IMG/VR virus record: IMGVR_UViG_3300042557_000196
Span: 1 to 54,915 of that record
DNA length: 54,915 nt
Reading direction: 5' to 3' (one strand)
Source of the DNA: a virus
Shown: positions 3,832 to 54,915 of the stretch, piece after piece
Position numbering within the stretch: the first letter of the stretch is position 1
How the letters are laid out: every line of letters begins with the position of its first letter
The notes under the pieces: model-generated
Database searches by the model: none
What the model was told of the DNA's origin: nothing
The model's input: only the letters and a program-made list of their open reading frames with translations
Made by a program: the position numbers and the translations under genes

Positions 3832-4628
3832 TGGGCACCGCCGCTGGAATGCTGGACCTCGCTCGGCAGCAGGTCGGATACGTCGAAGGCCCTCGCAACA
3901 ACCAGACGAAGTACGGCGCTTGGAGTGGCTACAACTTCCAGCCTTGGTGTGGCTCGTTCGTCAACTGGTGCCTTCACTTCAGTGGAACTGGAGGCGAGCC
4001 GAGCGTTGTCTGGACCCCCGGTGGCGCTCAGTCGTACCAGAGGCTCGGTCGTGCGATCCCCCGCAACGGCGAAGTGCGACCCGGAGATGTTGTGTTCTTC
4101 GATTGGGGCGGCTCGCTCCTCGCCAGCAACGTGGATCACGTCGGGATTGTCGAAGCACCTCTCCCTGACGGGCGCATCCAAACCATTGAGGGCAACACCA
4201 GCCCTAGCGACTTCGGCTCCCAGTCGAATGGCGGTGGCTGCTACCGGCGAATCCGCAGCAGAGGCACCATCGCCATGTTCGGGCGTCCCCTCTACGCCCC
4301 CGACCCGGCTTCTCCGTGGACGCCGCCTCCTGCCAACGTGGACTGGGCTGCACTCCGTAGGTTCGTCGCAGCCGCCCTCAGGAACGATCTGCGGGCCGTT
4401 GGGACCGTCAAGCTCGGCTCCCGTGGGAAGGCCGTAGAAACGGTCCAGAAGGCCCTGAACCATGTCTCCGGGGCTGCCTTGCAGGCTGACGGGTCGTTCG
4501 GCCCTCAGACGCACGCAGCGGTCGTGGCATTCCAGAAGTTCTTTCGCCTCGCTGGCGACGGAGTGGTCGGTCCGCAGACCAAGGCGATGCTGGACCTCTG
4601 CCTCGCCAAGATTGCGGCTGGCCAGTAG
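3831..4628 (+). CDS. Endolysin: CHAP domain plus peptidoglycan-binding domain
   Basis: 265 residues. The N-terminal CHAP-type amidase/endopeptidase has the catalytic Cys in WCGSF (C40), His in DHVGIV (H103) and a polar residue in EGNT (E120/N122). A Pro-rich linker near residue 165 joins a C-terminal PG_binding_1-like repeat containing DGSFGPQT and DGVVGPQT. It cuts host peptidoglycan at the end of infection. It abuts the convergent primase gene with one base between them. The first complete CTCTACGCC of the window is at 4290-4298, read here as Leu-Tyr-Ala. Confidence 0.9.
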   Translation: MGTAAGMLDLARQQVGYVEGPRNNQTKYGAWSGYNFQPWCGSFVNWCLHFSGTGGEPSVVWTPGGAQSYQRLGRAIPRNGEVRPGDVVFFDWGGSLLASNVDHVGIVEAPLPDGRIQTIEGNTSPSDFGSQSNGGGCYRRIRSRGTIAMFGRPLYAPDPASPWTPPPANVDWAALRRFVAAALRNDLRAVGTVKLGSRGKAVETVQKALNHVSGAALQADGSFGPQTHAAVVAFQKFFRLAGDGVVGPQTKAMLDLCLAKIAAGQ

Positions 4629-4629
4629 C

Positions 4630-5493
4630 TCACACTGAGCGATCCACGACACGCCGCAGCTTGCTGGGCGTCATGGAGTTGGGGTCCTTGACCTTGGCCG
4701 GGTACTTGAGGCGAGCAGTGGTCATCAGTCGCTGACCAATCTCGTCCTCTATCTGGTCGGCCAGCTTGTGGCCAGCGTCGTCGTTGTCAGCGGCGATCAG
4801 CACCACCTTCGGGACGAGAGACATGAGCGCCTTTCGCTGGTCGCTGGACATTGAGGACCCGTAGACCGACACGGCAGGCACTCCAATGTTCCAGAACGCC
4901 AGCGCATCGAAGCACCCCTCTGTCACCGCCACGACCGGCGACCCCATAGGAACCCGGTGATACGAGAAGAGGGTGGACTTGCGGGGGAAGCCCTTGGGGT
5001 AGCGGTACTTGACGCTGGAGTCCATGAAGCGTCGGTTGACCCCGAGCAAGCGACCTCGTGAGTCGTGCAGCGGGATCGTTATGGCCTTGGCAACTCCATC
5101 CCACCCGATCCTGAATCGCTTGGTGGTGATGCGAGTCAGATGCCGGTCGTTCCGCAGGTAGTCCCTGATCCTTGGAGGCAACACTGTGAACTGCTCCAGC
5201 CACTCCTCTGGGTAGACCTTGGGTTGCGCGCTCTGTCTGCCGCCGAGAGTGCGTTCGGTATGGTCCCGAAGCTCACTCAGACTGGGCATCGGCACGCTTC
5301 CCGCACCGACTTGCTTGACCAGCTTGCTGATCCCTCCTGACTCGCCGCAGCCGTAGCAAACGAAGAGTCCCTTGCGGACGTTGAACGCCATAGAGGGTCG
5401 GGAGTCATCGTGGAAGGGGCAGGTGCAGTACAACTCATCACCGCCGTCTATCCGCACGTCCAGATAGGTTTGAGCGAACTTGCGGTACCGCAC
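4630..5493 (-). CDS. DNA primase, CHC2 zinc finger plus Toprim
   Basis: 287 residues of DnaG type. A CHC2 zinc finger (C25-x2-H28-x17-C46-x2-C49) is followed by a Toprim core with VTEGCFDAL (catalytic Glu) and ADNDDAG. It synthesises primers for phage replication. I chose GTG 5493 because GGGAGGGG lies four bases upstream and just after the stop of the upstream gene; an in-frame GTG at 5523 has no ribosome site. It is much shorter than bacterial DnaG and lacks the C-terminal helicase-binding domain. It is the last gene of the minus-strand operon with the helicase. Confidence 0.88.
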   Translation of the reverse strand: MRYRKFAQTYLDVRIDGGDELYCTCPFHDDSRPSMAFNVRKGLFVCYGCGESGGISKLVKQVGAGSVPMPSLSELRDHTERTLGGRQSAQPKVYPEEWLEQFTVLPPRIRDYLRNDRHLTRITTKRFRIGWDGVAKAITIPLHDSRGRLLGVNRRFMDSSVKYRYPKGFPRKSTLFSYHRVPMGSPVVAVTEGCFDALAFWNIGVPAVSVYGSSMSSDQRKALMSLVPKVVLIAADNDDAGHKLADQIEDEIGQRLMTTARLKYPAKVKDPNSMTPSKLRRVVDRSV

Positions 5494-5506
5494 CTGACCC
5501 CTCCCA

Positions 5507-5815
5507 CTAGCTACCCTGCCCACCGGCAGGAAGAGTGTGCTTTCGCACGAACTGGCGACGGTTGGCCCGAGCTTGCATCAGGTCGGCGTCGATTGGACAG
5601 AGCCTTGTGTCAGGCCCGTAGTGCATCAGTGGCTCACCCTCATGCTGCGGGGTGTACCAGCGGCAATCGGCGCTAAGAGTGTCTGCCAAGCAGAGCGGGC
5701 AGGTTTCGTCTGGATGCTCGTCCTCTGTCTGGATCGCCAGTAGGTAGGTTTCGATCCAGCGAGCAGCGTGGTACTGCTCCTCGTCGTCGTAGATGTTCGG
5801 GTCGAATGGCCGCAT
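5507..5815 (-). CDS. Small Cys-containing protein between helicase and primase
   Basis: 102 residues from ATG 5815, overlapping the helicase stop by one base (TGATG). It contains CPLC, a further Cys (DCRWY) and RLCPID, which could form a zinc ribbon. The C-terminal tail is basic. The family is not recognised. Its place between a replicative helicase and a primase suggests a replication accessory or loader role, which is inference only. Confidence 0.7.
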   Translation of the reverse strand: MRPFDPNIYDDEEQYHAARWIETYLLAIQTEDEHPDETCPLCLADTLSADCRWYTPQHEGEPLMHYGPDTRLCPIDADLMQARANRRQFVRKHTLPAGGQGS

Positions 5816-7092
5816 CAGTAGTCCTCCTTTGCGGCAATGTCCTGCTCACGGATCTCTTCGGCACGTTCCTTGGTGATCTCTTCATACCCGCCAGTGTTCG
5901 GCGTGAAGTGCGTCCACCAATCGACTCCATCACGACCGTGGCGGTACTTGGCCAAGCGGAGTCGCATAACGTGGTCCGATTCCTTCCGCATCGTGAGGAC
6001 AGCATCAGCGTCGTGGCCGATGGCATCCGAACCAGCCAAGTGCTCAACTCCGGGTGCCTTCCCCCCGACGCCCATGCGGTTGATCTGAGATGCCGCCACA
6101 ATCGGAATCTGATACCGCATGGCGAGGCCCTTGAGTTCTGCCGAGAGCTGGGCCATGTTCTGCCACTGCTCTCTTTGTGCCGACCCGCCTGATCCCATGA
6201 GTCCCAAGTAGTCCACGAACACGACGTTGGGGTTGTTCCTCTCAATCTGGGACGCAATGGTCAGTGGAGTGACCCGCCCAGTGCTGGCGTCGTTGATGAA
6301 CAGAGAGCCATCCAGCTTGTCCTTCATGGACTTGAGGTATGCCCGGTACTTCCGAAGGTCAACACTCCCCTTCTGCATGTCGCTGGCCCGGAACACTTGC
6401 TCCCCGTACTTGGACGAGAGGAACGCATGGACCCGAATGGCGATCTGGAGGCGTGACTGCTCCATTGCGTCGTACTGGACCCGGTACCCGCCGAAGAGGG
6501 CAGCACAAGCCATGCGGATGAGAGTCCACGTCTTTCCCTGACCGAGCCGAGCAGCGACTACCCAGAACTCTCCGGGTTCCATGCCCCCGGTGATCTCGTC
6601 CAGAGTCTCAAACCCCGTCGGGATACCCGGCATCCCATTGTCCTGAGAACGCTTGGCCCGGTTCTGAATGTCTCTGTAGATCGACTGCCAGTCATCGTTC
6701 AGCTCTTTCTCTGAGCCGCTGCCGTCTACCTGAGACTGAACCTTGATGATGTCCCGGTGCATTGACCCGAGAACCTTGGCGGGGTCCAGACCTTCCTGAA
6801 GAGAGTCATTCGCTTCCAGCATGATGGAAACCAGAGACTTCTCAACGTGATGCTTGGAAAGCTCTTCGACTCCGTATTCCACGTCATCGACTGCTAGGAG
6901 AGCTTCACCGAACTTGGACTTGTAGAGAGACTTACTAGGGACCCTTCCATGTCTCCTGTAGTAGTTGTCGATCCATGACCATTCCTGCGAGTAGTCGTGG
7001 AACCAGTCAGTCTCTACGCCTGATGAATGAACATGAGCCATGTTGCCTGTACGCAGCACGGCTGAGATGAGGAATCTTTCCGGGTTGGCCAT
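5815..7092 (-). CDS. Replicative DNA helicase, DnaB-like
   Basis: 425 residues. A DnaB-like N-terminal region (about 1-120) is followed by a RecA-fold motor with Walker A ARLGQGKT (181-188), Walker B NVVFVDYLGLM, a QINRMG segment (motif H4-like) and a C-terminal motif with LRLAKYRHG. It unwinds DNA at the replication fork as a hexamer with the primase encoded downstream. AGGAAGG upstream of ATG 7092 supports the start. It heads the minus-strand operon 7092-4630. One CTCTACGCC (7012-7020) lies inside it, antisense to the gene. Confidence 0.9.
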   Translation of the reverse strand: MANPERFLISAVLRTGNMAHVHSSGVETDWFHDYSQEWSWIDNYYRRHGRVPSKSLYKSKFGEALLAVDDVEYGVEELSKHHVEKSLVSIMLEANDSLQEGLDPAKVLGSMHRDIIKVQSQVDGSGSEKELNDDWQSIYRDIQNRAKRSQDNGMPGIPTGFETLDEITGGMEPGEFWVVAARLGQGKTWTLIRMACAALFGGYRVQYDAMEQSRLQIAIRVHAFLSSKYGEQVFRASDMQKGSVDLRKYRAYLKSMKDKLDGSLFINDASTGRVTPLTIASQIERNNPNVVFVDYLGLMGSGGSAQREQWQNMAQLSAELKGLAMRYQIPIVAASQINRMGVGGKAPGVEHLAGSDAIGHDADAVLTMRKESDHVMRLRLAKYRHGRDGVDWWTHFTPNTGGYEEITKERAEEIREQDIAAKEDY

Positions 7093-7620: not shown

Positions 7621-7661
7621 GACCTCTCAGTCAGCGGCATTCCTGTCAACGACCTGATCCT

Positions 7662-7787
7662 CTACGCCCGTCGGTCGATGCGACCGCCCGGACGGGCCTC
7701 AAGTAGGGCAGTCAGGCAACGGTGGCAGGCATCGTACTCAACGATGAACCCATCCCGGTTGTACGGGGCGAGATCAGTCACCAGCAA
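7662..7787 (-). CDS. Possible 41-residue CxxC protein
   Basis: A short minus-strand frame from TTG 7787 with GGAGG seven bases upstream. It contains CHRC followed by a Leu/Ala/Arg-rich tail. The residue pattern is protein-like and codon choice resembles neighbouring genes. Its stop codon lies inside the CTCTACGCC at 7660-7668. It overlaps the end of the next upstream minus frame by 14 bases. The family is unknown and the call is tentative. Confidence 0.35.
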   Translation of the reverse strand: MLVTDLAPYNRDGFIVEYDACHRCLTALLEARPGGRIDRRA

Positions 7788-8158: not shown

Positions 8159-8193
8159 CTCAACCAACAACCAACCAACAAGGAGAACAACCA

Positions 8194-8535
8194 ATGGCCA
8201 AGCTCACCAAGTGTCCAGACCACCTCCGGTTCCGTTCGCTGCGGGACTTCGGTGACGCCATCGACAACGCAACCCTCCCCACCGACAACATCCTCCTGAG
8301 CTGGGGAGGTCGGCACTCACTCGTCGTCAAGGTGTCACGGACTCGCGACTGCGGATGGCGGCTGACGTTCATCGACGCGCCAGACTCCATCCGCCCGGAA
8401 CGCTTCGTCGCCTTCATGCAGCGGAGGTTCAAGGGATGGGACGGCGCATCCCTCGTCACCGCCAAGTCCGTGGCAGGCAACCCGAAGGCAACCGGCCTCA
8501 AGCGGTGGACCGAACACACGGTCATCGTGGACTGA
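8194..8535 (+). CDS. Early-block protein of unknown function
   Basis: 113 residues from ATG 8194, with AAGGAG after a CCAACC leader. It is mixed alpha/beta, fairly basic, rich in Arg and Trp, and has no recognised motif. It is the first gene of the early block and, like its neighbour, begins MAKLT. A DNA-binding or host-takeover role would be a guess. Confidence 0.75.
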   Translation: MAKLTKCPDHLRFRSLRDFGDAIDNATLPTDNILLSWGGRHSLVVKVSRTRDCGWRLTFIDAPDSIRPERFVAFMQRRFKGWDGASLVTAKSVAGNPKATGLKRWTEHTVIVD

Positions 8536-8568
8536 CCATCCTCTACGCCCGCCAGTGCGGGCCAACCT

Positions 8569-8616
8569 CGTGGGGCCGGGACGCCCCTTCCTCCAACCCC
8601 TTGTCCCGGCCCCACG
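8569..8616 (+). terminator. Strong intergenic hairpin
   Basis: CGTGGGGCCGGGAC (8569-8582) pairs perfectly with GTCCCGGCCCCACG (8603-8616) around a 20-base loop. A CTCTACGCC lies just upstream (8541) and a CCAAC leader downstream. Without a T tract it may be a weak terminator, an RNase-processing site or an mRNA stabiliser rather than a full stop. Confidence 0.6.
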
Positions 8617-8650
8617 CAACGCCCAACAACCAACAAGGAGTACAACCAAC

Positions 8651-9070
8651 ATGGCAAAGCTCACCGCAACCACCTACGACGACCTCTACAACGTCCTGAC
8701 CGACGAGAACGTGGAAGAGGCTGTCATCGGCAACAACACCACGGCCTTCCTCAACCAGCGTAGTTGTGAAATCGAAACGGTGAAGGTGGCTCTCCACGGC
8801 AGCGTGATCGCCGTCCTCTACGCCAACGACAAGGTGGCGTTCTCGCTGGCTGGCTACCCCACGGTCACGACTCGTGAGCGGATCAACCAGTTCTTGCCCT
8901 CTGGCTACAAGGTCGTCCAGCGTGGCGGGGTTCAGTTCGTGTCTCTGCCTGACGGCACCTACAAGGAACTCAACCCGCTGCGGACCTACACGATCTACGG
9001 GACTCACCGGGTCAATGGCTACACCGTCCCGGCCCGCATCGCCATGACCACTTCGGTCAACGACCTCTGA
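8651..9070 (+). CDS. Early-block protein of unknown function
   Basis: 139 residues with AAGGAG and a CCAAC leader. It begins MAKLTATTYDDL, similar in its first residues to the preceding protein (MAKLTKCPDHL), although the rest differs. It is soluble, rich in Thr/Val/Asn, without Cys clusters. CTCTACGCC at 8816 is read as Leu-Tyr-Ala. The family is not recognised. Confidence 0.75.
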   Translation: MAKLTATTYDDLYNVLTDENVEEAVIGNNTTAFLNQRSCEIETVKVALHGSVIAVLYANDKVAFSLAGYPTVTTRERINQFLPSGYKVVQRGGVQFVSLPDGTYKELNPLRTYTIYGTHRVNGYTVPARIAMTTSVNDL

Positions 9071-9114
9071 CCAACCAACCAACCAACCAACCAACTACCA
9101 AGGAGACAACCAAC

Positions 9115-9327
9115 ATGGCAAAGGCAACCGAACTCACCAAGGATCAGGAGATCGAGCGGCTCAAGGAGCAGCTCGCTTGCGTGGAAGGTATCGCAGTCGA
9201 AGCGATCGGAGGCTTGCAGGCTGGCGACGGCTGGACCTACGACCTCGGATGGGACCTTTCTCGCCAACTGGACGACTTGCTCGGACGGGTCCACTTCGGA
9301 CCGGACGATGATGAGAACGACGACTGA
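9115..9327 (+). CDS. Small acidic early protein
   Basis: 70 residues. An N-terminal amphipathic helix (about 8-35, possible coiled coil) is followed by an acidic tail ending DDDENDD. It has the longest CCAA leader of the family and an AAGGAG site. The acidic C terminus might mimic DNA or bind a basic partner, which is speculative. The function is unknown. Confidence 0.7.
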   Translation: MAKATELTKDQEIERLKEQLACVEGIAVEAIGGLQAGDGWTYDLGWDLSRQLDDLLGRVHFGPDDDENDD

Positions 9328-9356
9328 CCAACCAACCAACCAAGGAGTCAACCAAC

Positions 9357-10229
9357 ATGCCCAAGGCAACCCGCAAGGCTGGGACCTCCAGCCCCAAGTC
9401 CACCACCACGACCACCAGCGGCACTCGCAAGCCCGCCGCACGACGCAAGGCAGCATCCTCTACGCCCGCCGAGCAGCACGTTCCCGAATCGACTGAGCCG
9501 AACCCTCGTGCGGCTCACCGTGAGCGGATGGCTGCCAAGGAGGCCATGACCAAGGCGGTCACGGAATCCGCCAAGGTGCCGATGGAGTACAGCGACTTCG
9601 CCAAGCTGGACGACGCCCTCAAGGCGGCGCTCATCACTGGGCTGGACGCCGACTCCAACGGTGGCCAGTCCCGCAACGAAGTGGGCGAAGAGTACTTCGA
9701 CACGTTCATGGACGAGTTGGTCGACGGCCAGATGGACTTGGACATTGACTCGTTCATCGTCGCCTTGCTCGTTCGCCGTCGCAACCTCATCCTCCACGCC
9801 ACTGGCGACCCGGAGGCGCACGAAGAGTACAGCGACTTCAACGGCACGGGCGCTGGCCTCTTCGTCAAGGGCATGTACGAAGCGTTCGGCCTCAGGGCCA
9901 CCAGCGATGCTTGGGAGGCACCCAAGCCTGCCGCCACCAGTGGCAGCAAGGACGGGCCAATCTTCTCCGTCAGGGAAGTCACTGACGGCGAGGCCAACCC
10001 AACCGAACCTGCGTATCGCTCGGTGTACGAGGCCATCAACGATGGCGTTGGCCGTGGCACTCGCATCGCCATCCTGTACTCACGAGGCAACACCAACCGC
10101 CGCAAGTACCACGGCGAGATGGGGACCGTCCTCAACGTCAACCGGACGACCATCACCGCCAAGCTGGACTCCAGCGGCATCAAGGCCCGTGTCTCGCCCC
10201 AGCTTCTCTTCAAGGTGGTGGACGTTTGA
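9357..10229 (+). CDS. Early-block protein with basic disordered N terminus
   Basis: 290 residues. Residues 1-60 are low-complexity Thr/Ser/Lys/Ala/Pro, and the remainder is folded-looking. The C-terminal part (about 215-290) holds RIAILYSRG ... KYHGEMGTVLNVNRTTITAKLD, which resembles a small beta-barrel such as a KOW/SH3-like fold. It lies directly upstream of the MoxR ATPase, which shares a similar Thr/Ala-rich basic N-terminal tail with the same Ser-Thr-Pro motif. It could be a partner or substrate of that system. No family is recognised. Confidence 0.75.
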   Translation: MPKATRKAGTSSPKSTTTTTSGTRKPAARRKAASSTPAEQHVPESTEPNPRAAHRERMAAKEAMTKAVTESAKVPMEYSDFAKLDDALKAALITGLDADSNGGQSRNEVGEEYFDTFMDELVDGQMDLDIDSFIVALLVRRRNLILHATGDPEAHEEYSDFNGTGAGLFVKGMYEAFGLRATSDAWEAPKPAATSGSKDGPIFSVREVTDGEANPTEPAYRSVYEAINDGVGRGTRIAILYSRGNTNRRKYHGEMGTVLNVNRTTITAKLDSSGIKARVSPQLLFKVVDV

Positions 10230-10285
10230 TGACCACCTCAACCACCCGCCAGTCAACCAACGCAACCAACAACAAGGAGGGCCGT

Positions 10286-11338
10286 ATGGCCACGACCACC
10301 ACCACCTCGCGGAAGGCCACCAAGCGTTCCGCCTCTACGCCCGCTGCTGCGCCGGTCCACCCGCTGGCCAGCCTCATCCCCGATCCCGCCACCTACTTGG
10401 ACGGGTACGTTCACCGCACCATCCGTGGAGTCAACGACTTCGACTACATGGATCAGGTCTGGGAGGGTGACGGCAACGCCGCCTACAACCTCCTGATCGA
10501 AGGCCCGACGGGTGCGGCCAAGACGTCGCTCTGCTACGCATGGGCGGCATCCCGTGGCATCCCCCTCCTGCCCATCAGCGGCACCAAGGCCATCGACATG
10601 GAGCAGCTCGTCGGAGGCCCCGGCATCATCGGCAGCGAACTCAAGTCGTTCGTGCCGGGTGTTCTCGTTCAGGCCATGCAGTACGGCGCACTCGTGCTGC
10701 TGGACGAGAAGAACTACATCCCGCAGAAGGCGATGGGCCGCCTCAACTCGCTGCTGGATCGCCGCAAGTCGCTGGAAGTCAAGGAGGCCGAAGGTTCCGG
10801 CTGGTGCGCTTCCTGCGGCCTCTACAACGACGTGGAAGCGATTGCCAAGGCGCAGGAGGCAGTCATCCTGCACCACCTCGGCAAGCGCAAGGCTGCGGCC
10901 AAGCCGCCAGTGTGCAAGCACTGCGGCGAGGTGTACCAGTCCACCATCGTGACCGCCCTCGCTGGCAAGTTCATGGTCGTGGCGACGCAGAACCCCGGCT
11001 ACGAGGGGGTCTACGACGACAACGAAGCCCAGCGCAACCGCTTCCACGAGGTGGTCACTTTCGACTACGACGTGGAAGTGGAGAAGGACCTCTTGTGGTC
11101 CGACGGACTCATGGCCCTCGCTGCGGCGATCCGGGGACGCTACGGCATGGACTTTGAGACACCCCTCGGCACCAACCGGCTCATGCACTTTGAGGCGGTC
11201 GCACTCAACGAGAAGCTGGGCATCGGTTTCGCCTGTGAGGGCTTGGTCGATTACTTCCAGCCCTCCGAGCGTGCTGCCGTCAAGGAACTGCTGGAGATGC
11301 ACCTCTCGCAGATCGAAGCAGAGCTGGCGGAGGTCTGA
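10286..11338 (+). CDS. MoxR-type AAA+ ATPase with zinc-ribbon insert
   Basis: 350 residues from ATG 10286, with AAGGAGG seven bases upstream. Walker A is GPTGAAKT (73-80; the usual second Gly is A78), Walker B LVLLDE (D140/E141) and sensor 1 ATQNP (N236). Between Walker B and sensor 1 there are two CxxC pairs (C174/C177 and C210/C213), likely a zinc ribbon. MoxR-family ATPases act with VWA-domain partners to remodel or insert metal into target proteins, and the next gene is such a partner. The N-terminal tail (1-25) is Thr/Ala-rich and disordered. Confidence 0.85.
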   Translation: MATTTTTSRKATKRSASTPAAAPVHPLASLIPDPATYLDGYVHRTIRGVNDFDYMDQVWEGDGNAAYNLLIEGPTGAAKTSLCYAWAASRGIPLLPISGTKAIDMEQLVGGPGIIGSELKSFVPGVLVQAMQYGALVLLDEKNYIPQKAMGRLNSLLDRRKSLEVKEAEGSGWCASCGLYNDVEAIAKAQEAVILHHLGKRKAAAKPPVCKHCGEVYQSTIVTALAGKFMVVATQNPGYEGVYDDNEAQRNRFHEVVTFDYDVEVEKDLLWSDGLMALAAAIRGRYGMDFETPLGTNRLMHFEAVALNEKLGIGFACEGLVDYFQPSERAAVKELLEMHLSQIEAELAEV

Positions 11339-11345
11339 CCGCCAC

Positions 11346-11381
11346 GCTGACCGGGGTATGACTCGCTCTGCCCCGGTCAGC
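11346..11381 (+). terminator. Hairpin between MoxR ATPase and VWA gene
   Basis: GCTGACCGGGG (11346-11356) pairs perfectly with CCCCGGTCAGC (11371-11381), with a loop of 14. CTCTACGCC (11389) and a CCAACCAACAAGGAG leader follow at once. There is no T tract. The same order of elements recurs after the VWA gene. Confidence 0.6.
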
Positions 11382-11421
11382 ACCCACCCTCTACGCCCAA
11401 CCAACCAACAAGGAGAACAGC

Positions 11422-13515
11422 ATGCCGTCTACAGTCGAAGAACGCGCTACGGCGCACGCAGAGGTCACTTCATTCTGCCAGCGAGTTCTGGCCAGCCTCG
11501 TGCAGTCGCAGGGCAAGGTTGTCCGATCCATCCTCGGCAACGACACCCCGGTGACATACCACTACCAGTTCAACTCAAGCTTCTCCGCACCGTCCATCGC
11601 ATGGACTGATATGAAGAGTGTCTACATCAGCTTCGACAAGGCTAGCGAGGGGCTGGAGAAAGCGATCAGGGACTCCAAGGTGGACACCGAGCTGGTGACC
11701 CTCTCGGCAGTCGTGAAGCACGAACTCGCTCACCTCATGTTCAGCCCCGGCATGGACTCGCAGTTGATGGATGAGGTTCGTCGTTGCGGCGTTAGCACCG
11801 CGTTCAACATCCTTGAGGACAGCAGGATTGAGCGACTCTTCATCGCCAAGTACCCCGTGATGGCCAAGCTGTTCTCCATCATGGTCAACCGCTGGGTTGT
11901 CAGCGGGAACGCAAGGGCCCACCAAACCTCTTGGACTTTGCTGGCTGGAAGGCGCTACCTCAGCAGCGCAGTGAGGGACGCCTCGCGGGCCTCATTCGTC
12001 GGCTGGGCAAGGAACATGGGCATGGCCTCGGTAGGTCAGGTTGCCGACAGGGTGCAGCAGATTCATGACGCCTTCTACCGACTCGTGCCGTCGAACGACA
12101 AGCGCATCCTCTCTACCGACGATCATCAGATGATTCTGCTGGCCAAGGAGTTGGCAGACATTATCGCGTGCGGCGCCAATATGTCTGAAAGCACTGGGCA
12201 CTCTGATCCGAGCCAGTCCGGCATGGCCAACGATAGCCGTGGTGATGCACCCTCGGAGGCTTCCAAGGACGCCTTGGAAGAGGGGGACGCTCAGGCCAGT
12301 CAGGATGGGGATGGCAGCGACTCCACTGGTGGCGACGACGCTGCCTCTACGCCGAGCGACGCCGACGATGATGCCGATGCTGATGCCGATGCCGATGCAT
12401 CCTCCGCTGGCGACAGTGACGGCGACGCCGCCTCCAGCGACGGCGAAGGCGACGGCGAAGGCGACGGCGAAGGCGACGGCGACTCCAGCGAAGGCGACGG
12501 CGGATGCGGCGGCGACTCCACTGGCAGCGGCGATGCAGGTGGTTCCAAGGACGGAGAGGTGGCGAACGAACATGGCCACGGCGGTTACTCCAAGGGCAGT
12601 GGCAGCGACGCCTACGACCCTGTAAGCCTCGGTAAGGCCGCTCAGGAGTCCATCGACGCTGCGATGCAGTCCTCCGAGATTCAGAATGAGGTCCAGTCGT
12701 ACCGGGACCTCATGAACGACGGGTCGGGGCTGCGCTCGTTCTCCAAGCGCATCGGGCCAGCGAATGTCAAGCCCAACCCCGAACACTCGGTTTACGGTGC
12801 GAGCGAAATCCGGGCTAACGCCAAGGCGGCAAGTTCCAAGGTCGCCAAGGAGTTGGGTCGCCTTCGGTCGGCGGTTGAGGAAGAGCTGCTCACGAAGGAG
12901 TCTCGTGGCCGACTGGACGTTTCGGAGATCGTGCGCCGAACCATCAAGGACAAGCCTCTCGTCAACATCTACCGCCGCTTCGACGACGGGCAGGAGGACG
13001 AGGCTGGCATCGACATGGTGGTGATGGTGGACGGTTCTGCCTCAATGGGCTACGGCCATTCGTACAAGGCTTGTGCTGCCGCTTGGGCACTCAAGCACGC
13101 GATGGATCGCATCGGGCAGCCTTGCGGGGTGGTCAGTTTCTCCAACGTCTGCCGGACGATCTACGACTCCTACGAGAAGGCGGGGTCGGAACCAGTGTGG
13201 TCCTATGACTCGCAGAACACCGACCCCTTCATTGGCGCCGTTGCGGCACGGGACTTCTTCTCTCGCCCCAACGCCAACAAGGTGCAGGTGTTCGTTCTCC
13301 TCACTGACGGTTCGTTCGATGCAGAGACTGACGTGGTGGTCAAGCAGATGAACGACGCTGGCGTCATCACCGCCCTCTTCGGCTTGTCTAATGCCGTCCT
13401 CAAGCACGGCGATCACTCGTGCGCCATTTCCAGCGACATTCAGAACTCTCTGGAGATGGTGGCGATCGTCCGCAAGATTGTCCTCGCTGCCCAGCGAAAG
13501 GTGATCGAAGGGTGA
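11422..13515 (+). CDS. VWA-domain protein with HExxH metallopeptidase-like N terminus
   Basis: 697 residues. The N-terminal part has HELAH (H100-E101-x2-H104) followed by NILEDSRIE (E132 as possible third ligand), as in the putative metallopeptidase region of DUF2201/CobT-like proteins. A long Asp/Ala/Gly/Glu/Ser-rich linker (about 250-395) leads to a C-terminal VWA domain with MIDAS DGSAS (537-541) and LLTDGS (D629). Together with the MoxR ATPase upstream it forms a MoxR-VWA chaperone-like pair. Its substrate is unknown. The acidic linker carries GAC-GGC-GAA repeats and one CTCTACGCC. Confidence 0.82.
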   Translation: MPSTVEERATAHAEVTSFCQRVLASLVQSQGKVVRSILGNDTPVTYHYQFNSSFSAPSIAWTDMKSVYISFDKASEGLEKAIRDSKVDTELVTLSAVVKHELAHLMFSPGMDSQLMDEVRRCGVSTAFNILEDSRIERLFIAKYPVMAKLFSIMVNRWVVSGNARAHQTSWTLLAGRRYLSSAVRDASRASFVGWARNMGMASVGQVADRVQQIHDAFYRLVPSNDKRILSTDDHQMILLAKELADIIACGANMSESTGHSDPSQSGMANDSRGDAPSEASKDALEEGDAQASQDGDGSDSTGGDDAASTPSDADDDADADADADASSAGDSDGDAASSDGEGDGEGDGEGDGDSSEGDGGCGGDSTGSGDAGGSKDGEVANEHGHGGYSKGSGSDAYDPVSLGKAAQESIDAAMQSSEIQNEVQSYRDLMNDGSGLRSFSKRIGPANVKPNPEHSVYGASEIRANAKAASSKVAKELGRLRSAVEEELLTKESRGRLDVSEIVRRTIKDKPLVNIYRRFDDGQEDEAGIDMVVMVDGSASMGYGHSYKACAAAWALKHAMDRIGQPCGVVSFSNVCRTIYDSYEKAGSEPVWSYDSQNTDPFIGAVAARDFFSRPNANKVQVFVLLTDGSFDAETDVVVKQMNDAGVITALFGLSNAVLKHGDHSCAISSDIQNSLEMVAIVRKIVLAAQRKVIEG

Positions 13516-13519
13516 CCGT

Positions 13520-13556
13520 GCGGTGCCTCGGTAGCTATCCGCTGCCGGGGCACCGC
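13520..13556 (+). terminator. Hairpin after the VWA gene
   Basis: GCGGTGCCTCGG (13520-13531) pairs with CCGGGGCACCGC (13545-13556) with one G-U pair and a 13-base loop. CTCTACGCC (13561) and a CCAACCAACCAAAGGAG leader follow, repeating the cassette at 11346-11421. Confidence 0.6.
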
Positions 13557-13593
13557 TGTTCTCTACGCCTACCAACCAACCAAAGGAGTGCAA

Positions 13594-14064
13594 GTGGCGA
13601 AGAAAAGAATGAAGCCTCTCATCGACCGATTCATCGAAGCGGTTGACGACGGAGAGTACGACGAACGACTGGAAGAGCTGATCGAAGTGATCGCCACCCG
13701 GTTCGCTTGGCTGGAGTCCGACGACGACGGCGACGACGACAGTGAGCGACCCTCGCTGCTGCCCGACTACCGCTACTGGTGGATCGTGTCCAAGGCAGAG
13801 TGGGGCCGGGAAGGGTACGACGGTGAGCTGATCCACCTCATCGGAGCGCCTTCGCTCGCCTACTACGCAGAGTTGGATGGCGAACATACGGTGCTGGCGT
13901 TCCCGTCGCTGGAGTCCAGCCCGTCCGACGAAGAGCTGGCCGAAGGCAAGCAGCCTCTGATGCCCTACTGGGACCCGGACGGAGAAGGCTCTGAGCTGGA
14001 ATGGGCCAGCGATGCACGACTCACTGTCAGCGACACGCCACTAAGGACGAACGATGACTCGTAA
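13594..14064 (+). CDS. Acidic early protein of unknown function
   Basis: 156 residues from GTG 13594, five bases after AAAGGAG. The sequence is strongly acidic (DDDGDDDSE near residue 50, plus many Asp/Glu) with aromatic-rich strands (YRYWWIVSKAEW). No motif is recognised. It follows the MoxR-VWA pair and overlaps the next small gene by 11 bases, so it belongs to the same unit. Confidence 0.7.
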   Translation: MAKKRMKPLIDRFIEAVDDGEYDERLEELIEVIATRFAWLESDDDGDDDSERPSLLPDYRYWWIVSKAEWGREGYDGELIHLIGAPSLAYYAELDGEHTVLAFPSLESSPSDEELAEGKQPLMPYWDPDGEGSELEWASDARLTVSDTPLRTNDDS

Positions 14065-14233
14065 GCGTCATTCCGCCCGACTCTACGCCTACCAGTGGGT
14101 TGCAGAGACACCCAAGAAGGACCGGACCTACATCTGGCTGATCTCCAAGAACAAGTCGATGTACCAGTCCGACGACCTTGCGAGGCTTGCCATGTCTCGC
14201 TTGTTCTCGTTCATGACCAACCAACTCAGGTGA
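14054..14233 (+). CDS. Small basic protein
   Basis: 59 residues from ATG 14054, overlapping the end of the upstream gene. It starts MTRKRHSARLYAYQW and is basic and aromatic with one predicted helix at the C terminus. CTCTACGCC (14081) encodes its Leu-Tyr-Ala. No Shine-Dalgarno is obvious, so translation probably depends on coupling. The function is unknown. Confidence 0.6.
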   Translation: MTRKRHSARLYAYQWVAETPKKDRTYIWLISKNKSMYQSDDLARLAMSRLFSFMTNQLR

Positions 14234-42714: not shown

Positions 42715-43107
42715 GTGTCCAATCTTCGTGACCAGATCCTCGCAGCAGATGACCTGACTGCTGAAACCATGACCATCCCTGAGTGGGGTGATGCAGTCAT
42801 CGAAATCCGCACCATGACTGCGGAGGAGCGCACCAACTTCATGGGCCTTGCCTATGACTCCTCAAGTGGTGATCTGAACTTCTCCGTCCTCTACGCCGCC
42901 ATCGTCATCGCTTCGGTCTACGACCCGGAGACTGGCCTTCAGCTCTTCACTCAAGAGGACGGCCATGCCCTTGGCCAGAAGAACGGTGCGATCATGGAGC
43001 GGATCGCCACCAAGGCAATGGAGATGTCCGGGCTGACTGAAGCCGCCGTGGATGATGCGGGAAAAGGCTTCTCCACCGACCCGACCGACGATACCTCTAC
43101 CAACTAG
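42715..43107 (+). CDS. Tail assembly chaperone, short form (gpG-like)
   Basis: 130 residues from GTG 42715. It is located between tail tube and tape measure, as chaperones are. An acidic protein with EIRTMTAEERTNFMGLAYD. It contains the GGGAAAA slip site at 43059-43065, giving a longer product in the -1 frame. Confidence 0.8.
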   Translation: MSNLRDQILAADDLTAETMTIPEWGDAVIEIRTMTAEERTNFMGLAYDSSSGDLNFSVLYAAIVIASVYDPETGLQLFTQEDGHALGQKNGAIMERIATKAMEMSGLTEAAVDDAGKGFSTDPTDDTSTN

Positions 43108-43260: not shown

Positions 43261-46200
43261 GTGATAATCGCAGACCTCGTTGCCAAGCTTCGTGCTGATC
43301 CGTCCGACTTCATCAAGGGTACGGAGCGTGCCCGTGACGAGCTTGGCAGGTTCGTTACTACCGCCAAGACTGCCACTGGCTCTTCTGGCGGCGGTGGCGT
43401 CGTCGGGATGCTCGGGCCTCTCGGCAAGATTGGTGGCCTCGCAGCTACAGCTTTCGCAGGCTTTGGCGCTGCGAGCTTCGCCAAGGAAGCAATCTTCGGG
43501 TTCAACTCCCAGCTTCAGAACGCAGAAATGGCGTTCACCAGCATGATGGGGTCGGGAGAGAAGGCCCAAGCGTTCCTTGGCGACCTCAAGCAGTTCGCCA
43601 TCGCAACGCCGTTTGAGTTCACTGACTTGGTATCTGCGTCGCAGCGCATGACGGCGCTTGGGTTCAGCGCAGAGGACATTCTGCCAGCCCTTCAGAAGGT
43701 TGGAGATGCTTCTGCCGCTATGGGTGGCTCCAAGGACGTGCTGGACGGCGTGATCCGAGCAATGGGCCAGATCAAGATGAAGGGCAAGGTTCAGGCAGAG
43801 GAAATGAACCAGCTCGCAGAACGTGGTATCCCCGGCTGGGAGATGCTTGCCGAGAAGATTGGCGTGAGCATCCCCGAAGCTATGGAGATGTCCAGAAAGG
43901 GGGCTATCGACGCTGACACTGCCATCGCTGCGCTCCTTGAGGGGATGGACAAGCGTTACGGCGGGCTTATGGAGAAGCAGTCGCAAAGCTTCACAGGAGC
44001 TATGTCCAACATCAAGGACGCTGCCATTCAGACCATCGGCGGTGGCTTCAAGCCTCTGTTCGACATTCTCACCAAGGCTGGCGTGGCCTTCGCTGCGTTT
44101 CTTGGCTCAGAGAAGGTCAAGTCGTTCGTTGAGGCCTTTGCCTCTGGCTTCGCCACGGTGATCCAGTTTCTCCTTGACGCTGGCGGCAAGGTCATAGAGT
44201 TCATCAACGGGTTCGGTGGCGTTGGCGCAATCATGGAGTACGTCATCCCGATTGCTGCGGCACTGGCTGGGTATCTCGCCATGACAGGTGCCATCGCTGG
44301 CATCGGGAAGCTCGTCGGGGTCATCTCCAACATTGGCAAGGCGCTCGCTGGGATCATGACTGCGAACCCGATTCTGCTGATCGTGGCTCTCATCATCGGC
44401 GGGTTGGTCCTTGCCTACCAGAAGGTTGAGTGGTTCAGAGATGGGGTCAACACTGCGTTTGCCTTCCTCAAGGACACGGTGATCCCTGCGGTAGTCACGG
44501 GGTTCAAGACGTTCATCGACACGTTCGTTAGTGGCTCCAACTCAATCACCCAGTCAGGCTTTCTCCAGTTCATCCAAGAAGTGGCTATTGGAGCGCGCGA
44601 CTTCTGGGACGCCCTCTACGCCGCTGGGCAGACTGCCGTGAGTTGGGTCAAGGACACTGCATGGCCAGCAATGCAGACGGCGTTTGACGGGATCAAGAGC
44701 GCCATCGAAGCGGTCAAGGGTCCTCTTGAGGACTTTGGCAACTTCTGGACGGAGCGATGGGACGCCATCAAAGAAGCCACAACCAACGTGGTGAACGTCC
44801 TCAAGCCCATTCTTCTTGTTCTCACAGCTCCGTTGTGGCTGCCGATCATCGCTGGCATCAAGATGTTCCAGTGGATTTGGGAGAACGCTGGCGACAAGGT
44901 GATGGAGATTGTTCGCACGCTTGTTGACTTGGTGAAGAACCAGTTTCAGGCGTTCGTCCGAGTGATCGGCGGCGTGATTGACGTGGTGCTTGGGCTGCTG
45001 ACTCTTGACTGGGACCGCATCAAGTCAGGCTTTGGCAACATCGTCGGAGGAATCATCGACGGGTTCAAGAACCTCATTCCTTCGTTGTTCCGCATCTTCC
45101 AGAGCGTGCTGACAATCGTTATCCGCGCCTTCGGTTCCATTGGCGGCTGGCTCCTTGGCTGGCTTGGTGATGTAGCAGGCTGGCTGCTGGAGAAGGGCGC
45201 TGGGCTAGTCACGGGAATGCTCAGTGGGATGCTTGGAGCAATCGGCGGGATCAGGGACTTCTTCCTCAGCCTTCCCGGCACGATCCTTGGCCTGATTGGC
45301 GACGCTGCTTCGTGGCTGCTGGAGAAGGGCAAGGACATTCTCACTGGCTTGTGGGATGGGATAGAGGAGCTTGCGCCAAAGGTTTGGAGCTGGTTCTCTG
45401 ATCTTCCGGGCAAGGTGATCGACCACATCGGCTCTGTAAACCGAACGCTGCGCGAAAAGGGCATCCAGCTCATCACTGGTCTGCGCGACGGAATCGTTGA
45501 GTGGGTGCCGAATATTTGGAACTGGCTCAAGTCTTTCCCCGGTAACGTCCTCGCCTTCATCGGCAACCTTGGCTCGACTTTGCTGAATAAGGGCATTGAC
45601 CTCGTGACTGGATTGGTCAGCGGATTGCTCAATGCGGCTCCCCGTGTCTGGAGCTTCATCTCTGGCATCCCCGGCAACGTGCTGCGCTTCATCGGAAGCC
45701 TTATCTCAACGCTGCTGGACAAGGGTAGCGACCTCATGACTGGCCTGAAGAATGGCATTACATCTGCTTGGGAGAGCGTCAGGAGCTGGGTGGCAGACAT
45801 ACCAGACAAGCTCTCAAAGGCCGTCGGCAGCTTGTCCAGCGTTCTGTATGGAGCTGGTCGCAATCTTGTAGACGGGCTCAAGAACGGCATTTCCGCCGCT
45901 TGGAGTGGTGTTTCAAGCTTCGTTCAGGAGCAGATCAACAAGATCCCTTCAATCATCCGCCGCCTCATGGGCATCGACTCGCCCTCCAAGGTGATGATGA
46001 AGATTGGCACCCAGATTGGAGATGGCCTATTCCTTGGCCTTCAGGACGGTTTCTCCAAGGTTGACGGGCTGGTCGGCACTGCTTCAGCTAGCCTGACGCC
46101 TTCGATCACCGGCAGCCTCATGGCCAGTGCTGGGCAGGCAGTTGCCGCTGGCTCTACGCCGGGGTGGGCTGGCGCTGGCTCTGCTACCTACGTCATCAAC

Positions 46201-46956: not shown

Positions 46957-48630
46957 ATGAGCCGGTACGGTGACGCCTACGGTGGTGATTCCACCTACGG
47001 CTTTGAGTTCAACTCTGCGTGGCCAGCGTTTGAGGTACGAATCGGAACCAGCCTTGGAGCCAACAGCTTCGTGCTAGATGATGTCCAGCGTGGAGTGCTT
47101 GACGGCATCTACACATTGAGCGACTCGCTTGGCTTCGTATGGACCAACATCACCCCAGACATTCGTGACAGCTCTGGCATCAACGTCAGCCGTGGCAGTA
47201 CTCGTAATCAGGGTCCGTACTATCGCTACGAGGCAGGAACTTGCACGTTCACGCTGGAGAACCGGACTGGGCGCTACGACCCGCTCAACCTCTCCGGGCC
47301 GTTTGTGGTCAGCAACGTAACGCTTCTCCGTCCGAGTATGCCGGTGTCAGTCAGGATTGAGTACGACGACGTATGGCACGACCTCTTCACTGGGTACGTC
47401 GAATCGTGGAACGTGCAGTACTCCAACAATGGCAATGACTCAGTAGCCGTGGTTTCATGCGTCGATGCAGCAGGCACTCTGTCGCAGACTGACCCGCTGG
47501 AAGCTCCGGCCCAAGGTAGCGGCGAAAGTGCATCAGCACGCATCACTCGGATTCTGGACAACGTGAAATGGCCAGCAGAGCAGCGGTCTATTGCAGTCGA
47601 TACGTCCTCGTTCCTCCCGACGACTTTGGCCCAGCCAGCGTGGACAGAGATGCTTCTGACTGCTGATTCGGTCAACGGGTATCTCTGGGTGAATGCTTCC
47701 GGCGACGTTGTGTTCCAGACCAAGCAGTCGTTTGAGCGCAACGCCTCGTTCTCGTTCGGCCCGACCGCTGGAGACATCCCCATCGCTGACATTCAGGCAA
47801 GTGGTGATGCGGAGCAGGTCATCAACACGCTGAAGCTGGCTCGTGAAGAGGGCATCCAGCTCGCTGCCTTCAACGAAGAGTCGATTGGCCTGTATGGCCA
47901 GCGTGCGTACCAGAGAAACGACTTGCAGGTGTCCAGCGACACTCTGGTGCAAGAGTCAATCGACTACATCATCAGCCAGTACGCAGACCTTGAGTTTCGC
48001 GTCGAAGGATTCAACGTCTACCCGCAGCCCGAATGGAGTTCTGACCTTTGGAACAAGGTGTTGAACCTAGAGCTGCTCAGGCACGTCAAGGTGCTGTTCT
48101 CTACGCCTGACGGAAGAACGGTTGAGGTAAGCAACTTGATCCGTGGGATCAAGACCTCAATCAAGTCTGGTCAGTGGTCAATGTCGATCTCTACAGCGCA
48201 GGTACCTGACCGGGGTGGCGACTTCACCTTGGATGATCCTGAGCTTGGGCCACTGAGCTACTTCACTGAAGTGGAGCGTGAAGTTCTGCTTTCGTGGTAC
48301 CACGGAATGCTCGGAAGGTTTGGTGAAGCGACGGCTCGTGGCTACCTGCTGAATGGGTACTTGTTTCACGACTCTGTGTATGGTTGGACTAGCTGGAATA
48401 CTTATTGGGGCGCAGTAGAGGCAGGGTGGACTTTCGTAATGCCCATCACTCCGGGCTACGCGTTCGTGTTCGCTGACCAGATTTCTGGAGTAGACGAGAT
48501 AGCCACTCTTCTAAAGATGTGGGCTTGGTTCGTTGACCAGTCGGTCGCTTGGGCGAGCTTGCAGGTCACCCCCGAGAAGCTTGAGGCATGGGATGACTAC
48601 TATGCCTACGAGCGGCTGGCATTGTTCTAA
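46957..48630 (+). CDS. Minor tail/baseplate hub-like protein
   Basis: 557 residues. SRGSTRNQGPYYRYEAGTCTFTLENRTGRYDPLN and LFTGYVESWNVQYSNNGNDSVAVVSCVDA are typical of actinophage minor tail proteins downstream of the tape measure that build the tail tip. CTCTACGCC (48099) encodes FSTPDG. Confidence 0.78.
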   Translation: MSRYGDAYGGDSTYGFEFNSAWPAFEVRIGTSLGANSFVLDDVQRGVLDGIYTLSDSLGFVWTNITPDIRDSSGINVSRGSTRNQGPYYRYEAGTCTFTLENRTGRYDPLNLSGPFVVSNVTLLRPSMPVSVRIEYDDVWHDLFTGYVESWNVQYSNNGNDSVAVVSCVDAAGTLSQTDPLEAPAQGSGESASARITRILDNVKWPAEQRSIAVDTSSFLPTTLAQPAWTEMLLTADSVNGYLWVNASGDVVFQTKQSFERNASFSFGPTAGDIPIADIQASGDAEQVINTLKLAREEGIQLAAFNEESIGLYGQRAYQRNDLQVSSDTLVQESIDYIISQYADLEFRVEGFNVYPQPEWSSDLWNKVLNLELLRHVKVLFSTPDGRTVEVSNLIRGIKTSIKSGQWSMSISTAQVPDRGGDFTLDDPELGPLSYFTEVEREVLLSWYHGMLGRFGEATARGYLLNGYLFHDSVYGWTSWNTYWGAVEAGWTFVMPITPGYAFVFADQISGVDEIATLLKMWAWFVDQSVAWASLQVTPEKLEAWDDYYAYERLALF

Positions 48631-49362: not shown

Positions 49363-49920
49363 ATGCAAGACATTCAGCAGCTTGGCCACGAGTGTGTCGT
49401 CGGCATCGACCCATCATCGAAGAAACTTGCATGGACCGTGCTCACTAGCGGTTCGTTGTGGTGCGGATCAGCACGGCTCCCGCTCAAGAAGGCCGACCCA
49501 TACACTCCAAACAACGCAGCGGTGGCTATGACTGTCGCAAGGGAGCTTGTTGGCTACGCTGCCGACCTTGCAAGGGAGCCGGTGTTCTTCATCGAAATGC
49601 CAGTGGTCGGACGTGGTGGCGTTTACTCTTCGCTCAGTCAGGCATATGTCAATGGAGTGGTGCAGGCCGTTGTTTCAGCTCAAGGGCATGAGATAGTCCT
49701 TGTCCATCCCAGCAAGTGGAAGAGTCGTGTCGTTGGCAAAGGATCAGCAACTAAGCCCGACGTGGCTGAGTATCTTCGACTTCGATGGCCGGATCTCTAC
49801 GCCGCCGCCAATGGTGACGAGGACATCATCGACTCAGCAGCGATTGCACTTTACGGAGCTGCCGTTGTCTGCGGTGGACCGGAGGTGGATGCGCCACGCA
49901 GAGTGCGAAGGTCTGACTGA
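49363..49920 (+). CDS. RuvC-like Holliday junction resolvase
   Basis: 185 residues from ATG 49363. The RNase H-fold acidic residues are GIDPSSK (D16), FIEMPV (E78) and DEDIIDSAA (D154/D157). The start codon touches the CCA of the tRNA, so tRNA 3'-end cutting would leave a leaderless message; no Shine-Dalgarno can exist outside the tRNA. It resolves recombination branches, together with the RecA-type module at 22-24 kb. Confidence 0.82.
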   Translation: MQDIQQLGHECVVGIDPSSKKLAWTVLTSGSLWCGSARLPLKKADPYTPNNAAVAMTVARELVGYAADLAREPVFFIEMPVVGRGGVYSSLSQAYVNGVVQAVVSAQGHEIVLVHPSKWKSRVVGKGSATKPDVAEYLRLRWPDLYAAANGDEDIIDSAAIALYGAAVVCGGPEVDAPRRVRRSD

Positions 49921-51500: not shown

Positions 51501-52225
51501 TGCTGGTCGCATACGAGTACGAAGCTGACCAGCGTTTCAGCGGTGCGAGCCGTGGCCCTGCCCAGCTTGACCAGTGGGCTGGCGGTATTGAGTGGGGGCT
51601 GCGCTTCACCTACCCGTCAACGGCGTCGTCCGAGGAAGCCATGACGGCTTTCGCTGATCGCTTGTCGAAGGTCAGCCGCAAGGAGCGGGTTGTGGTGATC
51701 GGCGGGTGCCATAGCGGCAGCTACTCGGCAGTTCTTGCTGCCCACAGACGTGCTGGCCAGAAGGTTGGCGTTCTCTGCTTCGACGCCCATCTGGATGCAG
51801 AGCCGCTGGGTGACTTCGATGGTGATTCGCTCTACACCAACGCCTCAATGTGGCGCCTGCTTGCCAGCAAGGGAGCCGCAGTGGTCAGGGTTGTTGGCGT
51901 CAGAAGCGCAGCGACCCAGTACGAGAACGACAAGGTTCGGATCAGCAGAACGGTTGGCGAAGCTCTGTCTGACCTTGCAGACATGCCGCTCTATGTCTCC
52001 ATTGACATTGACGCATTCGACACCGCCTCTACGCCTGCAACGTCGTGGCCAGTGCCGGGTGGGTTGGAGCTACAGCCGGTGATCGACGTGGTGTCTGCGC
52101 TCGCTTGCTCCAGCCGGCTTGTTGGCGGCGACATTATGGAGTTCAACCCAGCGGTGGCAGCCGGAACGCACGGCGTCACTGAGCAGAGCATCTGGTCGCT
52201 GGTAAATGCGTTCGATGCTCTTTGA
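51500..52225 (+). CDS. Arginase/agmatinase-family ureohydrolase
   Basis: 241 residues from GTG 51500. All manganese ligands are present: GGCHS (H71; the usual Asp before His is Cys), DAHLD (D95, H97, D99) and SIDIDAFD (D169, D171), plus an MEFNP Glu (E214) and the substrate-loop motif PVPGGL. It is shorter than free arginases (~300). Family members cleave guanidino groups of arginine, agmatine or arginine within peptides. The next gene codes for an Arg/Lys/Gly repeat protein, so a peptide substrate is possible (inference). Confidence 0.82.
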   Translation: MLVAYEYEADQRFSGASRGPAQLDQWAGGIEWGLRFTYPSTASSEEAMTAFADRLSKVSRKERVVVIGGCHSGSYSAVLAAHRRAGQKVGVLCFDAHLDAEPLGDFDGDSLYTNASMWRLLASKGAAVVRVVGVRSAATQYENDKVRISRTVGEALSDLADMPLYVSIDIDAFDTASTPATSWPVPGGLELQPVIDVVSALACSSRLVGGDIMEFNPAVAAGTHGVTEQSIWSLVNAFDAL

Positions 52226-53912: not shown

Positions 53913-54518
53913 ATGGCACCAGACCCCGCAGGACGCCCCGTAAAGCCCGATCTCGCCATCGACCCTGACGGTGTACCCATCGAGCTCTCCGACCCGTCAG
54001 AAGGCCACCTAGACGATGGTGCCGAAGGGTCCGGGGACGTGGGGAGCGTGATCCTGTCAGACATTCAGGACAAGCTGGCCAACGATGTACCACTAGCCCC
54101 GGCTGAGAAGCAGCGCATGGCAGTGACCCTGCGCCTATCGGGAGCTACCTACAAGCAGATCGCCGGGTCAATCGGGATCAGTGTGAGCTATGCCCACCAG
54201 CTTGTGCAGACAGCCTTGCGGGATACTGCCCATGACAGTGTTGAGGATCTAAGGCGTATGCAGTTCGCCCGGTTGGAACACATGCTCATGATGGTCTGGC
54301 CAAGCGTTGCACAACGGGACCTAGCGAGCATCCACACTGCAATGTCCATCATGCGTGACGAGAATGCACTGATGGGGGTGGACAAGCCAACGACGGACGG
54401 GGACGGACTGATGGATGCAGGCCCCACCATTGTGGCTACTGGGGACAAGGCTGAGTACCTGAAGGCACTGCGTGAAGCTAGGGAGCGTGCCCTAGAACCC
54501 AAGCCTGACACTGACTGA
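53913..54518 (+). CDS. terS: Terminase small subunit
   Basis: 201 residues. An N-terminal Pro/Asp-rich segment, then a helix-turn-helix (RLSGATYKQIAGSIGISVSYAHQLV) and helical middle part (LRRMQFARLEHMLMMVWPSVAQRDLASIHTAMSIMRDENALMGVDKP) typical of actinophage terminase small subunits. It recognises the packaging site; the GCAGT cluster just downstream is a candidate. TerL is reached across the contig ends. Confidence 0.75.
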   Translation: MAPDPAGRPVKPDLAIDPDGVPIELSDPSEGHLDDGAEGSGDVGSVILSDIQDKLANDVPLAPAEKQRMAVTLRLSGATYKQIAGSIGISVSYAHQLVQTALRDTAHDSVEDLRRMQFARLEHMLMMVWPSVAQRDLASIHTAMSIMRDENALMGVDKPTTDGDGLMDAGPTIVATGDKAEYLKALREARERALEPKPDTD

Positions 54519-54527
54519 CAGTGCAGC

Positions 54528-54692
54528 GCAGTGCATGGCGGGTGCAGTAGTGCGGCGGGTGCAGTGTCTACCTAGCAGTAGGTACCCCTAGTACCCATAG
54601 GGGAGCAGTGCCACTGTCCCTATCGGTAGTGCATGGCAGTGCAGTGTGCAGTGACAGTCATGCAGTAGAGCAGCATCCATGCAGTGTGCAGT
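54528..54692 (+). repeat. Cluster of 11 GCAGT elements
   Basis: GCAGT starts at 54528, 54544, 54561, 54575, 54605, 54636, 54641, 54648, 54662, 54681 and 54688, often as GTGCAGTG. Bases 54519-54841 contain no clear gene. A CCCCTA / TAGGGG hairpin (54585-54603) lies within. The position after TerS makes a terminase-binding (pac) array plausible. Confidence 0.65.
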
Positions 54693-54841
54693 ACCTGTAC
54701 CGCTCCATGACCCCCCTGCCCATGCTGCAAATACCAGCCTCGTCCCCACCCAGCATGTGGCTCCCGCACAATGCGCGCGGCTGGAGGCCGGCCCGTGGGG
54801 GCGGTACTTCCCCCTCGGGGCATGGGGGGTGGGGGGTGGTC

Positions 54842-54915
54842 CTCTACGCCCCGGTGAGGTGACGAGGGGTGGACACGGGCGATTGCCAGCGAGGGGGGTG
54901 CCGACGGGGGTGGAG
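54842..54915 (+). repeat. Right copy of imperfect terminal direct repeat
   Basis: Starts with CTCTACGCC (54842-54850); from 54845 it matches the first ~70 bases of the window. Mismatches are near 54855, 54858 and in G runs. It supports circular permutation or terminal redundancy. Confidence 0.75.

Follow-up and report, generated by a model that had tools for sequence, protein, structure and literature searches.

The 54,915-bp stretch of DNA analysed here (hereafter the window) is the whole of IMG/VR virus record IMGVR_UViG_3300042557_000196, and the element in question is a 9-mer, CTCTACGCC, which recurs along its plus strand. The window carries genes for terminase, portal, a MuF-like protein, protease, major capsid protein and tape measure, together with replication and recombination genes encoding a DnaG-like primase, a DnaB-like helicase, a DnaE-like polymerase, a UvsX/RecA-like protein, a Cas4-like protein and two Holliday-junction resolvases. 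Only three of the called genes are not plus-strand genes, and a WhiB gene points to an actinobacterial host. Because a homologue of the gene at 53913–54518 sits upstream of the large terminase gene in several relatives, this gene probably encodes the small terminase; the window probably represents a close-to-complete genome whose map has been opened between the small and large terminase genes.

CTCTACGCC occurs in 33 exact copies on the plus strand and in none on the minus strand. Dinucleotide shuffles gave a mean of 0.32 copies over both strands, with a maximum of 3. Codon-preserving shuffling (300 replicates) yielded a mean of 1.8 and a maximum of 6 coding copies on the plus strand, compared with 25 observed, and a mean of 0.04 on the minus strand. 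An initial annotation made from the sequence had described a strictly plus-strand, repeated 9-mer; both the repetition and its polarity are borne out by these counts, and its total of 32 was a slight undercount that overlooked the copy at 3246–3254. It had also proposed comparing one-mismatch copies with codon-preserving shuffles, and this comparison confined the excess to exact copies: the 8 one-mismatch copies on the plus strand and the 2 on the minus strand correspond to chance (8.1 and 4.6, respectively). CTCTACGCC is therefore all-or-none, unlike a typical operator. We found no mention of it in the literature searched.

All 33 plus-strand copies could be placed relative to genes, with 24 in sense-coding sequence, one antisense (7012–7020, within the minus-strand dnaB-like helicase gene) and eight intergenic, which agrees with the coding (three frames), intergenic and antisense placement noted at the outset. 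Nine sense copies are read in frame 0, as LYA; they lie in the genes for the endolysin (4290–4298), a pyrimidine-dimer glycosylase-like protein (14886–14894), the DnaE-like polymerase (21046–21054), a Holliday-junction resolvase-like protein (23375–23383), the tape measure (44614–44622) and a RuvC-like resolvase (49795–49803), in a small gene (14081–14089) and in coding sequence at 8816–8824 and 42889–42897. Twelve are read in frame 2, as xSTP: in the genes for an AAA ATPase (10333–10341, ASTP), a VWA-domain protein (12345–12353), the DnaE-like polymerase (19641–19649), the major tail protein (41773–41781), the tape measure (46152–46160), a tail-region protein (48099–48107) and an arginase-family protein (52027–52035), in coding sequence at 9458–9466 (SSTP), 16633–16641 and 36177–36185, and at 30773–30781 and 31607–31615. 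The last two occupy the first and second units of an internal repeat of one gene and are thus not independent of each other. Frame 1 accounts for three copies, among them those in the 2OG-Fe(II) oxygenase-like gene (3246–3254) and the head morphogenesis gene (27572–27580). Intergenic copies lie at 7660–7668, in a gene-poor stretch to the right of dnaB, and at 8541–8549, 11389–11397, 13561–13569, 18240–18248, 25035–25043, 33790–33798 and 39116–39124, and the rightmost copy (54842–54850) falls between the TerS-like gene and the window end.

Spacing was far from random. Gaps between copies range from 275 to 3,201 bp (mean, 1,612 bp) with a coefficient of variation (CV) of 0.49, compared with 0.97 for random placement, and none of 20,000 random sets was equally even; for the smallest gap, the minimum-gap P value was 0.0036. 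On this even background the density peaks at 7–15 kb, where 11 copies stand against 4.8 expected (P = 0.005). Flanking bases are also biased. A pyrimidine precedes 29 of the 33 copies (C in 22), in line with the 28 of 32 first reported; weaker preferences are seen for C at −4 (22/33) and for G or T at −2 (28/33), and T never occurs at the second base after the motif.

The motif might instead give polarity to replication or packaging by some means other than a nick, acting every 1.6 kb or so as a site of lagging-strand priming or loading, or marking direction for a DNA translocase. The mean gap of 1.6 kb, the even spacing and the single orientation around the whole map speak for such a signal, as do a primase and a DnaB-like helicase among the phage's own genes. 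Known phage primases, however, read sites of 3–5 nt, unlike a strict 9-mer, and relatives with homologous primase, helicase and polymerase lack CTCTACGCC. We consider such a signal doubtful.

Comparison with homologous proteins suggested that the word has been maintained at a cost. At the CTCTACGCC copy covering DnaE residues 784–786, the window protein reads LYA where alignable relatives read KYI, QYI or GYV, and the second copy in the same gene encodes ASTP, which no relative reads at that position. In the pyrimidine-dimer glycosylase, LYAK stands in place of the LLRK, LVRK or LIRK of relatives. Since conserved residues at some copies differ from those of all relatives, the DNA word itself appears to be under selection, at some copies at the expense of conserved amino acids. 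Outside complete copies of the motif, the plus strand contains no CTACGCC, the 3′ part of the word, compared with 5.0 copies in codon shuffles; its absence would fit harmful partial sites, a suggestive result given 60 shuffles and several words tested. Together with the codon shuffles and the use of all reading frames, these phage-unique residues support the earlier proposal that selection acts at the level of DNA or RNA.

An RNA element in plus-strand transcripts, such as a processing or binding site, would accommodate the finding that, with a single exception, the copies are located in leaders or on the sense strand of genes. By contrast, the exception is antisense to dnaB, every reading frame is represented, and the copies showed no local RNA structure, with folding energy and motif pairing equal to those of random sites and pasted controls. 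These points make an RNA function quite improbable.

We then ran a blind scan for one-strand words on the window, on control phages and on relatives, in total over 40 phage sequences. In phage tf, the word at its proven nicks ranked first (TACTGTGACG, 9:0), and in T7 the scan recovered the phage promoters. Strictly one-strand words with about a dozen sites and no more one-mismatch than exact copies were found only in the window, in tf, in the T7 promoters and as one regional word in a relative (record G002). This regional word, GGGTTGAACTT, has 11 one-strand copies in a 14-kb region (L104, 24317–38249) and perhaps represents a promoter or terminator family. In G045, a capsid relative (L110–L112, 47,362 bp; also L082, L084 and L090), GATGCGA (74:6) and ATGCGAT (61:2) are strongly biased in all three phases; we rejected this word as being of the same kind as CTCTACGCC, as it is degenerate and randomly spaced.

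The recovery of T7 promoters, which are equally one-strand and exact, brings up a transcription signal, that is, a promoter, operator or stoperator specific to the phage, of the sort known from T7 or mycobacteriophage L5. Gene direction matches that of the motif along almost the whole window, there is a modest excess of intergenic copies (8 compared with 3.3; P = 0.01), and three copies (11389–11397, 13561–13569 and 39116–39124) stand exactly 24 bp ahead of a start codon. However, 25 of the 33 copies lie inside genes, one of them antisense inside dnaB, and only 7 of 33 fall within 100 bp of the next start, compared with 13 of 15 T7 promoters and 5 of 12 tf nicks (rightward gene set). Because most T7 promoters adjoin starts, location separates the window and tf from T7. 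L5-like mycobacteriophages have more than 20 asymmetric stoperators whose orientation correlates with transcription (PMC9283540), which resembles the many oriented sites of the window. Those sites are 13 bp long, degenerate, tolerant of substitutions, located in promoters or short intergenic spaces and read by the immunity repressor of temperate phages (PMC9283540), whereas CTCTACGCC is exact and mostly intragenic, and no integrase domain was found in the window. The stoperator and promoter roles listed by the initial annotation thus fit poorly, and we regard a transcription signal as improbable.

In T7, CAGCAG was also counted at 0:36, a bias that has been explained by avoidance of the restriction enzyme EcoP15I, all 36 sites running in one direction (PMC3874151). 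Restriction avoidance by site orientation would likewise leave CTCTACGCC in a single orientation. The T7 word, though, is a 6-mer without strong enrichment whose bias comes from absent inverted sites, and avoidance would explain the missing minus-strand copies of CTCTACGCC and not a 100-fold plus-strand excess of a 9-mer (33 compared with about 0.3). This makes it a very remote explanation.

The closest parallels came from phages with proven nicks. For some fifty years it has been known that virion DNA can carry strand-specific nicks, and no function has gained acceptance (PMC11780129). Phage tf has 14 nicks in TACT/RTGMC, on the top strand only, within and between genes and antisense to two genes; the nicks are unevenly dense, and single-substitution copies of the nick word are few, some of them not nicked (PMC3517423). 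In our own counts, the tf 9-mer TACTGTGAC occurs 11:0, with six one-mismatch copies on the plus strand and none on the minus strand. Phage Rembedalsseter has 13 nicks at WACTRTGAC, again confined to a single strand; across its group the motif ignores gene boundaries, with 88% of copies in coding sequence (PMC11780129). The window resembles both in having a strict 9-base word with many copies on one strand and few one-mismatch copies, in its coding, intergenic and antisense positions and in an uneven local density. It differs in its word, its lineage and its 33 copies compared with 13–14, and it is known from sequence alone. The word CCTA/CTCCGG of phikF77/phiKMV is also a one-strand nick word, and its CTACTCC is one base off the CTACGCC of the window, possibly by chance; phikF77, by contrast, has only four sites, all intergenic. 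The T5 word R/GCGCRGG is likewise nicked on one strand, with the difference that it also occurs in the unnicked strand.

CTCTACGCC therefore shares with nicked phages a short (7–10 bp), exact, over-represented one-strand motif, at 33:0, whose sites are independent of gene boundaries and gene strand. What we observe directly is an exact, one-strand, evenly spaced and selected DNA word that is indifferent to gene, frame and gene strand. By analogy, we propose as the best explanation, with a probability of about 0.5, that CTCTACGCC is recognised by a nicking activity specific for both site and strand; the word would work like the nick sites of known nicked phages, and we do not class the window phage as a member of them. 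A protein, probably encoded by the phage, would read CTCTACGCC together with the weak flanks C-N-K-C before it and would leave single-strand interruptions at fixed places of the plus strand, as in T5, phikF77/phiKMV and tf; such nicks would have 3′-OH and 5′-P ends and could be sealed by ligase. One nick every ~1.6 kb would divide the plus strand into some 34 pieces and keep the minus strand whole, and such nicks might ease packaging or ejection or serve as entry points for recombination. Strand-specific nicking was not among the many roles that the initial annotation offered, between which it made no choice.

Several observations weigh against nicking. An assembled sequence cannot display nicks. 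Neither an ATP-dependent DNA ligase domain nor an HNH domain was found in the window, although the tf annotation likewise lacks a DNA ligase, and no nickase candidate in the window was supported. Conservation of the tf-type motif extends to 61 diverse phages (PMC11780129), whereas CTCTACGCC is at chance level or absent in relatives sharing 53% (DnaE), 64% (large terminase) and up to 69% (major capsid protein) protein identity. Spacing is also more even than in tf (CV of 0.49 compared with 0.73), an evenness that known nicks do not require.

Two genes of the window were tried as nickase candidates and rejected. The calcineurin-like gene at 32745–33770 is also present in contigs L143 and L144, which have no excess of CTCTACGCC. 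The gene at 27861–29099 looked nuclease-like by eye; its structural model was unusable (mean predicted local distance difference test score, pLDDT, of 31), and it has no phage homologue. Our search of the literature on nicked phages returned no nickase sequence of the sciA/sciB type. The protein encoded at 27861–29099 has a peptide, KGDYPGHPFRGNQWTGG, in common with that encoded at 30435–31946, and the latter contains an internal repeat, STPKRP..VADVEESV.

Relatives were examined through DnaE, portal, major capsid protein, large terminase, tape measure, RecA and one virion protein, with some loci uncounted, and none showed CTCTACGCC above chance. No close relative of the window phage was found in IMG/VR, the nearest being 53–69% identical in protein. 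The initial annotation had named absence from close relatives as evidence against its proposal; the motif is indeed absent, but from relatives at just this distance. In a pattern scan, 26 contigs paired CTCTACGCC with a CCAACCAA leader. One contig, L162, has three same-strand copies, which we attribute to chance: at least two are in-frame LYA codons, there are several one-mismatch neighbours, and the contig has no homologue of the window.

A further comparison bears on who might read the word. Window positions 37145–38151 and positions 16800–17806 of L236 (record G080) have 1,007 bp in common at 88% DNA identity, within a virion-protein gene, and the two records are otherwise unrelated, which is evidence of a recent exchange. 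The two phages therefore probably have related hosts, a common host being inferred; a search of bacterial genome contigs for host links found none. G080 has no copy of CTCTACGCC in 28,880 bp, where ~17 would be expected at the window density, and the common stretch itself falls within one of the largest gaps between copies (36185–39116). As a single case that depends on this inferred common host, G080 speaks for a reader specific to the phage rather than for a word used throughout the host.

This result bears most directly on a Chi-like recombination or nuclease-control site. Under this reading, a helicase-nuclease of the host (or of the phage) would enter from the right end and read the motif, whose orientation would protect or recombine the phage DNA. 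CTCTACGCC is non-palindromic, exact, of Chi-like length, polarised and dense, Chi words being over-represented and polarised in genomes, and the phage encodes a RecA/UvsX-like protein, a Cas4-like protein and two resolvases of its own. Chi, by contrast, is a word of the host genome and would be expected in other phages of that host, whereas the window word is phage-specific as far as could be tested; no relative carries it, and a Chi site does not require even spacing. The Chi-like role suggested at first, at least as a host Chi, is weakened by the copy-free G080, and we consider it unlikely. We rank the rivals in descending order as Chi-like site, replication or packaging polarity, transcription, RNA element and restriction orientation.

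Somewhat apart from these, CTCTACGCC might represent an oriented, genome-wide signal of a new class: marks of a single polarity around the entire map, set at near-regular intervals (~1.6 kb) like those of a ruler and read by a phage-specific protein. That protein would organise replication, recombination or packaging, whether or not nicking is involved, and the signal would have arisen within this lineage. We regard this as possible but not likely.

Should CTCTACGCC prove to be nicked, its sequence, the phage lineage and the site number would all be new, and even spacing would be a new constraint on a kind of feature already known; its 33 sites would exceed the counts seen for the other phages compared. 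Thirty-three exact, even sites that partly cost conserved amino acids apparently mark a feature under strong natural selection, and their spacing, density and flanks are numbers that any model of nicking must explain. The analysis also suggests an inexpensive screen of phage genomes for exact words that recur many times, are strictly biased to one strand, have no excess of one-mismatch copies and fall in all reading frames; such a screen recovered the tf nick word without prior knowledge.

Other sequence features of the window are distinct from CTCTACGCC. TGCTGAT, often followed by CC or TC, has 46 copies between 4796 and 52729, most of them beyond 16 kb; it is over-represented on both strands (27:19, compared with 4.3 expected per strand) and thus unoriented, unlike CTCTACGCC. 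The stretch 8169–14215 contains CAACCAAC/CCAACCAACCAA repeats that are almost exclusively in plus-strand orientation; at least two of them are in leaders directly ahead of ribosome-binding sites. The arginase-family gene at 51692–52225 encodes an arginase/agmatinase-family domain that matched the model only over its C-terminal part. Finally, many 6-bp palindromes are missing from the window, including CCATGG (0 compared with 28 expected), CTGCAG (0 compared with 25) and CGTACG (0 compared with 24), as if the phage were under strong type II restriction pressure; in the relatives G002 and G006, CCATGG is enriched.

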